Shown here in pieces: positions 27,350-36,092 of a stretch of DNA of 45,458 nucleotides. The notes beneath the pieces are model-generated. The model saw only the letters and a list, made by a program, of their open reading frames with translations, was not told the DNA's origin and ran no database searches. The stretch lies in assembly GCA_020057225.1 (NCBI GenBank), contig JAGVGH010000136.1, positions 1-45,458 on the forward strand, in the 5' to 3' direction. Source of the stretch: Desulfobacterales bacterium. GTDB taxonomy: Bacteria > Desulfobacterota > Desulfobacteria > Desulfobacterales > Desulfatibacillaceae. Position 1 is the stretch's first letter, and each line of letters opens with the position of its first letter. Made by a program: the position numbers and the translations under genes.

Positions 27350-28084
27350 TCATCCCTGAAGGGTGGTCAGCGTCCGCGCCTGCCTGGGCCACTCGTCGTA
27401 GGTTTTTCCGTCCAGGTTCCAGCCCGCTTTTTTCTTGTTCACGCCGCCCCACTGTTTGAAGAAAAAGGGAACGCCCGCCTCCCCGCATTGTTTCCGGATA
27501 TCCAGGATCCAAGGCTCTTCCATGGGGCGCGCCCCGGGCCCGGACTCTCCGCCGACGATTACCCAGTGGATTCCGGAGAGGTCAAGTTCTCGAACAGGGC
27601 CAAGAAGAGGCTCCATGGACAGAAAGCGGACTTTGGCGGGAACATTTTTAAGGTGACGGGCTCGGAAAACGTAATCCGCGCGCTCAATGGTCACGCCCAT
27701 CCACACATTGGAGGGCCAGACGAGTTTGGAGGCAAAATTTTCCATCCGTTCGGAGCGTTTGGTGAGCACCTGGAATATATGCCATTTGGCCTTGCGCATG
27801 ACATTGAAAATGTCCAGGATAAACGAGTCCGGGACATTCTTGTGGAACAGGTCGCTCATGGAGTTGACGAACACCATTTGCGGTTTTTTCCATGTGAGGG
27901 GGGTTTCAAGGCTTTCGGGGTGAAGGGCAATATTAAAGCCGGTGGAGTAATGCGGCTGACCCATGGCCTGGAGGCGGCGGGCCATTCTTTCCGCGTAGCA
28001 GTTCAGGCATCCGGCGCTGATTTTGTCGCACCCGGTCACCGGATTCCAGGTGGCTTCGGTCCATTCGATTTTAGAGGCTGCCAT
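27350..28084 (-). CDS. DUF5131 (phage Gp37/Gp68-like) family protein
   Basis: 'IEWTEATWNPVTGCDKISAGCLNCYAERMARRLQAMGQPHY', 'VFVNSMSDLFHKNVPDSFI', 'FQVLTKRSERM', 'WVIVGGESGPGARPMEEPWILDIRKQC'. Confidence 0.88.
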   Translation of the reverse strand: MAASKIEWTEATWNPVTGCDKISAGCLNCYAERMARRLQAMGQPHYSTGFNIALHPESLETPLTWKKPQMVFVNSMSDLFHKNVPDSFILDIFNVMRKAKWHIFQVLTKRSERMENFASKLVWPSNVWMGVTIERADYVFRARHLKNVPAKVRFLSMEPLLGPVRELDLSGIHWVIVGGESGPGARPMEEPWILDIRKQCGEAGVPFFFKQWGGVNKKKAGWNLDGKTYDEWPRQARTLTTLQG

Positions 28085-28154
28085 GCTTTATCGCCTTTAG
28101 TATGGCATACCGGTAAAGAAAAATTCCGGGCAGGATCGCCGATGGAATCCAAAG

Positions 28155-28688
28155 TCAAAACGGGGAAAAAGCCGCCACCCCGCGGCTCACCGGCCATTTG
28201 GGAAAGTTCGCATTCCAGTTGGCCACGTTGACCACTTGGCAACTGGTGACGATGCCCTGCTTCCATCGTTTGGACGCCAACCCAACAGGCAATTCCTTCA
28301 CCAGAGCCTTTCGCATGACCGTATTCAAGGCGTTGTCGAAAGTCAGCAGGCATATATAGTGGATCGGCTTATCAACTTTTTGTTCCGCATGGCGAAAAAG
28401 ATAGGAGTCCCGATATTTATATTTAAGATAATTTTTAAGCCATTTAAATCTGGTTTGTTTTTCATCGCCTTCCTGATCGGTGGTCATATCTTCCATTTCA
28501 TATAAAAAAGGGTCATTAAAATCCTTCATTTCAACAAAGATATAAGCATCAGGCAATTCGACAATTATGTCAACAGCCTTCATAGGCTGGCCATGGTATG
28601 TAGGCTTTGATTTGTCCTTTTCATCAAAAACAAAAGCATCAAGCGCATCAGTGAAATTAAAAGAAAACCCGTCAGCATCAACCTTCAT
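28155..28688 (-). CDS. Uncharacterised protein with possible PD-(D/E)XK nuclease-like core
   Basis: 177-aa ORF; 'KAVDIIVELPDAYIFVEMKDF' fits D-(X)n-ExK; ATGA overlap with the upstream ATPase. Confidence 0.65.
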   Translation of the reverse strand: MKVDADGFSFNFTDALDAFVFDEKDKSKPTYHGQPMKAVDIIVELPDAYIFVEMKDFNDPFLYEMEDMTTDQEGDEKQTRFKWLKNYLKYKYRDSYLFRHAEQKVDKPIHYICLLTFDNALNTVMRKALVKELPVGLASKRWKQGIVTSCQVVNVANWNANFPKWPVSRGVAAFSPF

Positions 28689-29722
28689 TTTCCGAGTCCT
28701 TTCATGGATTTCACAATTTCACGGTCAACAATACTGCCAAAAGTATCATCAATTGCGTTTGGAGAAAGACTCATATAATCATCGGTTGAAGAAAGTTCTA
28801 TTTCTCTGGTTTCCTTGTTCCTAAACAGGCTGTGAAAAAGAATTTTGTCTTCTGAATTTGCCTGTAAATCGAATTCTTTAAGAATCATATAATCATGTGT
28901 TGTAAGAAAGATTTGCACGCTAAGGCGCTGTAATTCAATCAATATATTCACGACAGCCTTCATCAGGCGCGGGTTGAGATTGGTCTCAGGCTCATCCCAA
29001 AATAGCGCTGATCCGTTCAACAAAGTTCCATTTTGAATCAATATCCAAAGAAGACCCATTTTCCGGAATCCCTCGGCCAGCAAGGTAAACTCCAATTCGC
29101 CATCTTTGCCGCGCAGAAAAAACTCCTCTTTTTTCGCCACAACTTTGCCGTCCATAGCCTCCTGCAAATTTTCAAGAAGCTGCCTGCGCGGTTTGTCTGT
29201 AGGGCCTTTAAGCAAGGGAAGAAATGCCTTCCGCAGGATATCAACATAGACCTCTTCAAAGTGAATTTCCCGCTCCTCGTAGAGTGAGCGAAATCCAGGA
29301 GCGTTCGCCATCATGTCCTTGACAGGAATGTAGGCCGCCTCCATGGGGTTTTCTTTCCAGGCCTTTGGAGAGCCGGAAACCTTGGCGTTTTCGGGGTTGG
29401 CGGTATGATTTGAAAGAGACAGCCGCAGGGTGATTTTTTTTCCGTCCTCGAGCTTTCGATGCACTTCCAGCGACCCATTGATACTGCCAGGAGACCGCTT
29501 GACAAGACGTCCGATTTGTTTGCCGGAAGGATAGAAAACATTGTTGATTTTTTCAGCAAAACCCTCTTTACTTTTAGCTATATCACATGCGGCATAGGCA
29601 GCCTTCAGAATATGGGTTTTCCCGGTTCCGTTTTCGCCGACGAAAATGTTAATTCCCGGCGAGAAAACGACCTCGAGTTTTTCGAAGGCTGTAAATCTTT
29701 CAAATTTTATCTTGTCAAGCAT
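28685..29722 (-). CDS. SMC/ABC-like AAA15/AAA21-type ATPase
   Basis: Walker A 'FVGENGTGKTHILKA', Walker B 'ALFWDEPETNLNPRLMKA', H-switch 'FLTTHDYMIL'; ATG 29722 preceded by AGGAGG. Confidence 0.85.
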   Translation of the reverse strand: MLDKIKFERFTAFEKLEVVFSPGINIFVGENGTGKTHILKAAYAACDIAKSKEGFAEKINNVFYPSGKQIGRLVKRSPGSINGSLEVHRKLEDGKKITLRLSLSNHTANPENAKVSGSPKAWKENPMEAAYIPVKDMMANAPGFRSLYEEREIHFEEVYVDILRKAFLPLLKGPTDKPRRQLLENLQEAMDGKVVAKKEEFFLRGKDGELEFTLLAEGFRKMGLLWILIQNGTLLNGSALFWDEPETNLNPRLMKAVVNILIELQRLSVQIFLTTHDYMILKEFDLQANSEDKILFHSLFRNKETREIELSSTDDYMSLSPNAIDDTFGSIVDREIVKSMKGLGK

Positions 29723-30079
29723 GTTCAGCCTCCTGTCTCTGTAATCCTGATTCTTTCCTCCGCCAAAGGGTAATGGATATTGATACCTCTGCCGGGCTTT
29801 GCCGGCGGCGGCGCGTGCGGATATCAGGCTCTCCCGGGGCCTTGTCCGGAGGACCTGGGCCGGAGACACCCACAAAGGCGGGAGTATCTTCTTCAAGGCC
29901 GCTATCAGGCGTTTTCAGAGCATAGGGACCGGCCGGGCCTTTATTCGCGGCTCTGATTGGGGCCAACGCGGTCATGGACGTGGCGTGAAATGGATTGCGT
30001 TGACCAATTCGGGACCCGGATGAAACGGTTACCAGTTTAAAAGCGAAGGTGCAAGCGTCTCGAAAAGGAAAGCCCCCCC

Positions 30080-34247: not shown

Positions 34248-34288
34248 TTAAATGTAACTTATTCGGGAACTTACCAAAGTAGAAGTAA

Positions 34289-35046
34289 TTACAGCCTGTT
34301 CGACACGCCATAAACCGCCCTGAGTTTTTCAAGAACAACTGCCGCGGGCATCCTCCCCGGGCCAAAAGGCTTTAAATCCTCGCGCGGGTCGGCCTCCACA
34401 GATTCCAGAAACCTGTTCAAATCGCCGCCAATGGAGGCGGGCAAAGGGACACGGGTTTCCGGCGCAAGGAGCTGAAACAGCCGGAACACATCGTTTCTGT
34501 GCTTTTTAATGTCTCTCCCATCCACCTTTTCCCCCTTGGCCTGTCTCCCGGTGAGGTCCAGCCATGCTTTTGCCTTCAAGGGAACCAGACATTCCGGAGT
34601 CACTGCCATCAGGCCCTCGATTTCCCGTTTGAATTCATGGATAAAGCCATAGTAGGCGCCATCCATCAGGATCGCCGAAAGGCTGGAAAGCTCCCCGTCC
34701 ACAGGTATAGGGGTCAGATGATGCTCCCCTTCCAGATCCAAGGCGTCCGGAGTCCGGGAAAACAACTCCAGCATCCATGGATAGGCATCTTTATCAGGAT
34801 CGTGGAACCGGCAGAACAGCTTTTTCCCCGTGCTCTTCTGCAGGTTCTTATAACCTTCGTTTTTTACGAATTCCCAAAAAGCCTTCACGAACGCCCCGTC
34901 CATGGACTCCAGGCACAGCACGATGTCGAGGTCTTTGGTGGCCCTGAACTCCAGGCCCGCCTCTTCCATGGCAAGATCGCAGGCGGCTCCCCTATCAGGA
35001 CGTAGCTGTCCTGGAATCCCGCAAAATGCTCCCGGAAGCGCTCCAT
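34289..35046 (-). pseudogene. AbiEii/AbiGii-like nucleotidyltransferase toxin with apparent 1-nt frameshift near the N-terminus
   Basis: From ATG 35046: MERFREHFAGFQDSYVLIG..., then +/-1 frame change at GGGG (34989-34992); downstream frame: (GAACDLA)MEEAGLEFRATKDLDIVL... to stop at 34289. Confidence 0.75.
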
Positions 35047-35051
35047 GCCTT

Positions 35052-36035
35052 TTACCACCGGGCCTTCTCCATCATTGCATCCAGAGCTGACTCCACACGC
35101 TCGTCATTGGTTTTCCACAGGCTGAGATAGAGCGAAAAACGGTCCGCCAAACCGTCTTGGGCAAGGAGGGCCGGGGAATAACTCCAGATTTCCAATTGGC
35201 TGGCGTCTGGTTCGCCAACGGGCAGTTCCAGGACGCTATTGAGATTCCGTACACCTTTCCATTCCTTGCCGCCCATGGCAAAGACCGGATTGGGGGGCCC
35301 GGCCAGGGAGGAATACCCGGCCAAAGCGGTGAGTCCGGCCTTCACCCCCGGGTGCCCGTTCGCGGGAAATTTTACCCAGAGGAGCTTTCGGACAGGGCTT
35401 CGAAGGAATGCCAGCGCTTTTTCCCAAAGGGTTCTCCGGTCCCCGTCCAGGCGAAGGATCCGCCGCCTTCCTTCCATGGCGACATGGCACAACTCCAGGG
35501 TTTCCAGTTCATCAAACGCCCGGGTCATGCTCATGGGCGTGTACCCAAACCGGTCCGCCATCTCCTTCGGAGTCAAGCCCTTTTCATGGCCATAAATCAG
35601 GGCGTATAAAAACACGGCCTGGGTGGAAGGGCTCCATGCGGGGCGGATATTCCGGATGGTCTTGAAATGTTCCCGTAGATCAATACCCAGGGGAGGCAGG
35701 TACATTTGATTTCCAGGAACCACAAACGGAACTTTTTGCCCGATAAGGCGGTTGCGGTTGGCTGCGGAAATCCTCCGGCAGGCGAAAACGACCTGGTGTC
35801 TCCAATGTTTTTGCACTTGGCCGATGTGTTTCCGGACGGACGCCGGAGTCTGCTCTTCTTCTTCCCGGAGGACCATGACGAGGCATGGTGTATCAAGGAA
35901 GGACACCTGGAAAAACGTATATAGGTTTGACAGGAAAAAGGGGAGGCTGCCCTCTCCTTCCCATGCTTCCGGTTTCACCGGGATATCCAGGGTTTCCTTG
36001 ACGTACCGCGTGAAATCGTTTTTCAGGGTTTCCAT
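35052..36035 (-). CDS. HTH (MarR-like) protein, putative partner/antitoxin of the nucleotidyltransferase
   Basis: 'LTPKEMADRFGYTPMSMTRAFDELETLELCHVAMEGRRRILRLDGD' winged HTH; stop 5 nt upstream of the toxin ATG; start inferred at ATG 36035 rather than 36065. Confidence 0.72.
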   Translation of the reverse strand: METLKNDFTRYVKETLDIPVKPEAWEGEGSLPFFLSNLYTFFQVSFLDTPCLVMVLREEEEQTPASVRKHIGQVQKHWRHQVVFACRRISAANRNRLIGQKVPFVVPGNQMYLPPLGIDLREHFKTIRNIRPAWSPSTQAVFLYALIYGHEKGLTPKEMADRFGYTPMSMTRAFDELETLELCHVAMEGRRRILRLDGDRRTLWEKALAFLRSPVRKLLWVKFPANGHPGVKAGLTALAGYSSLAGPPNPVFAMGGKEWKGVRNLNSVLELPVGEPDASQLEIWSYSPALLAQDGLADRFSLYLSLWKTNDERVESALDAMMEKARW

Positions 36036-36059: not shown

Positions 36060-36092
36060 TTGCATGCTAACGCCTTAAGTGTTACCATGCAA
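36060..36092. promoter_or_regulatory. Operator-like palindrome upstream of the HTH/toxin pair
   Basis: TTGCATGCTAACGCCTTAAGTGTTACCATGCAA, near-perfect inverted repeat. Confidence 0.6.

Follow-up and report, generated by a model that had tools for sequence, protein, structure and literature searches.

A frame-broken nucleotidyltransferase gene behind an intact winged-helix partner: probable loss of the toxin-like half of a distantly AbiE-like gene pair in a Desulfobacterales genome

Our analysis of a 45,458-nucleotide stretch of DNA from a Desulfobacterales bacterium (contig JAGVGH010000136.1; hereafter the window) revealed a two-gene module on the minus strand, in which an intact, antitoxin/regulator-like gene is followed by a broken gene for a toxin-like nucleotidyltransferase (NTase). 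The partner gene encodes 327 amino acids from ATG 36035 to TAA 35052 (35052–36035) and is preceded by a 33-bp operator-like palindrome at 36060–36092, a site that is kept before the partner across the family. The footprint of the NTase gene, delineated from open reading frames, relatives and profile matches, extends from GTG 35058 to TAA 34289 (34289–35058), with a GGAG at 35067–35070 as its probable ribosome-binding site. Sequence and profile both place a frame break at a GGGG run (34989–34992), in the codons for the GG pair of motif I. The GTG-initiated product (34885–35058) is 57 amino acids long and carries family residues up to the first glycine of GG, after which it runs out of frame to a TGA, and a remainder of 226 amino acids without motif I is open from an internal ATG (34289–34969).

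The break lies 22 codons into the NTase gene, in the minus-strand context GTC CTG ATA GGG GAG CCG CCT GCG. The starting frame ends at TGA 34885–34887, and the family sequence resumes in the next frame, which stays open to TAA 34289. A profile of 59 relatives, from which the window sequence was excluded, matches the window as two pieces on the same strand, 2–24 (E = 5.5e-5) and 24–251 (E = 1.4e-84), which abut at the second glycine of motif I; this exact junction argues that the frame break is not a chance occurrence. The whole gene lies in one frame in 66 intact relatives, none of which needs a shift, and the GG codons vary among them (GGCGGA, GGTGGT and others); five relatives carry a five-G run at the same spot, all of them in frame. 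The frame read-through and the split profile match thus show that the one-base frame break which the initial annotation had recognized in the G run is genuinely present in the sequence as given, and its location inside motif I of an AbiEii-like NTase, upstream of the DxD and behind an intact partner, was likewise supported. Apart from the break, the gene is in good condition: it matches the profile at E = 6e-85 and keeps every family-invariant residue beyond that point. Such preservation suggests a recent break, and would fit an error in the sequence equally well.

The start of the gene had been placed at ATG 35046, 5 nt after the partner's stop. GTG 35058, four codons earlier, is the most likely start, because relatives begin with MV(R/K)GL, because 43 of the 66 relatives overlap the partner's stop codon by 7 nt (typically ATGGTAA; GTGGTAA in the window), and because the GGAG lies 8 nt before this codon, at the same spacing as in relatives. 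The NTase gene therefore overlaps its partner by 7 nt, and the proposed gap disappears. No homologue begins at the equivalent of the internal methionine (34969), which had been raised as the possible N-terminus of an intact protein; relatives start about 30 residues upstream of it.

The partner protein is longer than its one recognizable domain, a MarR-like winged helix located mid-protein, and no dedicated model for it exists in Pfam, NCBIfam or PADLOC. A partner homologue lies directly upstream of the NTase in most loci, and upstream of the partner, again in most loci and across phyla, we find the palindrome TTGCAnnnTAAC-N9-GTTAnnnTGCAA, with an almost invariant 9-nt centre. Of 84 upstream regions (a few of which represent one locus more than once), 59 contain it with at most four mismatches, compared with 0.8% of shuffled sequences. 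In the window the site reads TTGCATGGTAAC-N9-GTTAGCATGCAA and is perfect. The element is likely to be the operator of the family, and its conservation before the partner, together with the perfect copy in the window, suggests that the partner is probably a MarR-like autorepressor and antitoxin; autorepression is known for AbiEi (PMC3985639). A partner start at 36065, as given in the list of open reading frames, is unlikely because the operator-like site covers that position, and ATG 36035 agrees with the family. An Rfam search of the region returned nothing.

What kind of nucleotidyltransferase does the broken gene represent? The family shares four conserved elements, namely GG, RxTKDhD, a KA(K/R)A-hydrophobic segment and DIKKHRND. 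The GG pair is present in 57 of 59 members, R39, T41 and D45 are invariant, and D43 is found in at least 90%; the spacing from GG to D is 18 residues in 56 members and 19 in three. Most members contain the motif-III-like sequence KA[KR]A[WFY][LIV]DL, to be compared with the AbiEii motif III, a lysine in hydrophobic surroundings of the KLxAaxxR type, and DIKKHRND is conserved where AbiEii has its motif IV, +DxxD, a pattern it does not reproduce. The Pfam family PF08843 (AbiEii, DUF1814) is a recurrent weak match, detected in 37 of 59 members with a best E-value of 3.5e-5; the intact relative L007 scores 13.1 bits against a gathering cut-off of 22.5, and the window protein has no match to this model. 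None of the PADLOC AbiEii models matched the NTase better than E = 0.007, and Pfam, NCBIfam, PADLOC and PHROGs hold no dedicated model for it. A profile search of solved structures gave nothing significant, the best hit being 8an4 (MenT1) over residues 7–55 (E = 0.21). The structure predicted for L007 (pLDDT 89.6) matches pol-beta-type nucleotidyltransferases, best of all the Mimivirus poly(A) polymerase 4wse (E = 8e-5) and Cid1 (E = 6e-4).

The closest parallel is the AbiE type IV toxin–antitoxin system. Both have two overlapping genes, with the winged helix-turn-helix regulator first and the pol-beta NTase second, motifs I and II of the form GG...RxTxDhD, inverted repeats before the regulator, and an occurrence on plasmids. 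They differ in that AbiEii has the spacing hG[G/S]-x15-DhD where the family described here has GG-x18-D, in that the motif IV region here is DIKKHRND and not literally +DxxD, in the mid-protein position of the partner's winged helix and, in the window, in the broken NTase. Given the departures in spacing (18 versus 15) and motif IV, we keep the NTase apart from AbiEii (PMC3985639). The earlier label "AbiEii-like" is apt for a distant relationship and fails for AbiEii proper, on account of the Pfam score below the cut-off, the spacing and motif IV; the family is a divergent one, which we describe as working like AbiEii without assigning it to AbiEii. The tRNA nucleotidyltransferase toxins of the MenAT systems of Mycobacterium tuberculosis also have a DUF1814-type NTase toxin and supply the best profile match, 8an4, but that match is non-significant and confined to the N-terminal motifs, and the MenA antitoxins are different proteins. 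With the non-canonical poly(A)/poly(U) polymerases (4wse, Cid1) the family shares the superfamily fold only (TM-score 0.3–0.43 on the query).

NTase genes of this family occur in proteobacterial groups, Actinomycetota, Clostridia, Bacteroidales, PVC groups and others, and on at least 51 plasmid records, 32 of them typed as conjugative; among the 40 plasmid records listed, the protein is mostly annotated as a hypothetical protein. They were also found on 3 phage records and 19 viral contigs. Across these loci decay is markedly one-sided. In 13 loci (the window, L006, L033, L057, L064, L072, L075, L078, L082, L083, L084, L095 and L127) the NTase is broken next to a partner that is intact in so far as the contig covers it; L082–L084 are related, and in L006 and L084 the contig breaks off, so that just the end of the partner is visible. 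The reverse was seen in one locus, L056 (1801–2765), where a consensus error is plausible since its contig title gives a coverage of 4.3. A sign test of 13:1 yields p = 0.0018, or p = 0.006 with one lineage collapsed (11:1). Because the partner gene is the longer of the two, the asymmetry becomes stronger once length is allowed for (p = 0.00016 for all loci and 0.00075 with one lineage collapsed).

The lesions themselves are heterogeneous. They comprise a nonsense codon in L057, frameshifts elsewhere in the gene in L033 and L127, an in-frame deletion in L078, other deletions or truncations in L006, L072, L075, L082, L083, L084 and L095, and, in L064 (2970–2990), a distant homologue from a groundwater MAG, a frameshift that arose independently at the GG codons affected in the window. 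L127 (3001–3748) lies on the Mesorhizobium amorphae plasmid pM0123d, a complete record, where the NTase is annotated as two coding sequences next to an intact partner; it is alone among the 40 listed plasmid records in matching as two pieces. Two draft genomes each hold one intact and one damaged NTase copy (L015/L072 and L017/L074). Searching 395 genomes of the phylum with the partner recovered eight full-length partners, whose NTase is intact in five, broken in two (the window and G417) and cut by the contig end in one. With kinship ignored, a split NTase is known from one plasmid record in 51 (L127), compared with about a dozen of some 80 genome-collection loci; all 19 viral copies are unbroken. 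The loss of the NTase with retention of the partner, at 13:1, points to the NTase as the harmful member of the pair. A comparable state has been described for orphan and decayed toxin–antitoxin loci in Klebsiella (PMC7192599), in which the antitoxin is kept and the toxin lost or degraded; those loci belong to other families, whereas the asymmetry here was counted for an undescribed one.

Based on these observations, we propose that the window carries a real, ordinary loss-of-function mutation of the NTase (toxin) gene in an AbiE-like two-gene module, a reading to which we assign a probability of about 0.72. Of the three options initially put forward, namely an inactivated toxin, an assembly error and phase-variable or programmed slippage, the first is the best supported, by the heterogeneous NTase lesions found with the partner intact. 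A single-base frameshift in the short G run would have inactivated the NTase gene, leaving the upstream winged-helix partner and its putative operator untouched. With its start at GTG 35058 coupled to the partner's 3' end, translation would yield only the 57-residue fragment, devoid of the DxD centre, and any product begun at ATG 34969 would be missing the glycines of motif I. The G49A substitution and changes at R63, D67 and D69 abolish toxicity in AbiEii (PMC3985639). With the one product deprived of the DxD and the other of the glycines, the locus would in effect be, and probably is, antitoxin-only. We infer further that the NTase is toxic and is neutralized by the partner, which also represses the operon via the palindrome, and that the mutation is present in the organism itself.

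This last point bears on the chief alternative, which we consider unlikely but worth serious attention: the organism's gene may be intact, with one base dropped from the G run in the consensus. The assembly is a draft of 323 contigs (91.9% complete), the break sits in a homopolymer, albeit a short one, and the rest of the gene, including all family-invariant residues past the break, is as would be expected of an intact gene. On the other hand, the other long genes of the window are uninterrupted frames, and a random error would fall in the NTase gene rather than elsewhere in the window in only about 2% of cases by length. A frame-switch scan of 623 kb of the genome yielded 26 candidates, not clearly above false positives plus natural gene overlaps; the scan is noisy, with false positives in 7 of 120 intact open reading frames, and missed the window's own short N-terminal break. 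Moreover, broken NTases recur in the family, one of them in a complete plasmid and many by large deletions, which are not base-calling errors. The suggestion of an assembly error thus retains some force, tempered by the recurrent NTase breaks and the uninterrupted genes around this one. We found no second NTase copy in the same genome, and the locus was absent from the other genomes examined of the host's taxonomic family.

It is highly improbable that the 226-residue remainder has taken on a new function of its own, for example as a non-catalytic, partner-binding regulator. From ATG 34969 the reading frame is fully open and well conserved, retaining RATKDLD, the motif-III-like KAKAWLDL and DIKKHRND, and C-terminal parts alone are kept in L006, L070, L074, L083 and L084. 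Against this, no ribosome-binding site is seen before ATG 34969, relatives do not start there, and the fragments kept in other loci differ in their limits, a pattern more in keeping with decay than with a defined product. A low, regulated level of full-length NTase produced by programmed −1 frameshifting or transcriptional slippage in the G run is barely tenable. In its favour, the frames overlap precisely at the motif, low expression of a toxin would make sense and L064 is broken at the same codons. Against it, an in-frame X_XXY_YYZ heptamer is lacking (the frame-0 codons are ATA GGG GAG), the relatives, five-G runs included, are read in a single frame, and other loci are damaged by nonsense changes, by deletions and by frameshifts elsewhere. 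Slippage of the phase-variable kind, evaluated as a separate candidate, fared no better, the tract being 4 nt where a long simple-sequence tract is the hallmark of such genes.

Under the favoured reading of an inactivated toxin gene, the retained partner raises a further, more speculative idea. Other bacteria contain many orphan antitoxins, for which an anti-addiction role has been proposed (PMC7192599). It is conceivable, if somewhat doubtful, that in this undescribed NTase/winged-helix family the partner has been kept under its 33-bp putative operator after the loss of the toxin because it is useful in itself; if true, it could, for instance, protect the cell from incoming plasmids that carry an intact pair. 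A frameshift by itself is commonplace. The value of the present one lies in the widespread, little-described family behind the window pair, in which one-sided decay tells the likely toxin gene from its companion. We predict that the NTase is toxic and the partner its antidote and autorepressor, and that loci such as this one are candidate anti-addiction loci.

The surroundings of the pair offer some additional observations. An empty site could not be demonstrated by synteny, since the radical SAM neighbour, which is present in relatives, occurs there apart from the other window neighbours. About 5 kb from the pair, three minus-strand genes (27353–29896) match the PADLOC candidate defence models PDC-M41B/M30B and HEC-02A/B, within a stretch of low GC content (43–51% at 28–30 kb). 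Just past the NTase stop codon, at 34258–34282 on the minus strand, lies the 25-bp sequence CTACTTTGGTAAGTTCCCGAATAAG, which has five copies in the genome (at most two mismatches; none for a reversed-pattern control) and is probably a small dispersed repeat.
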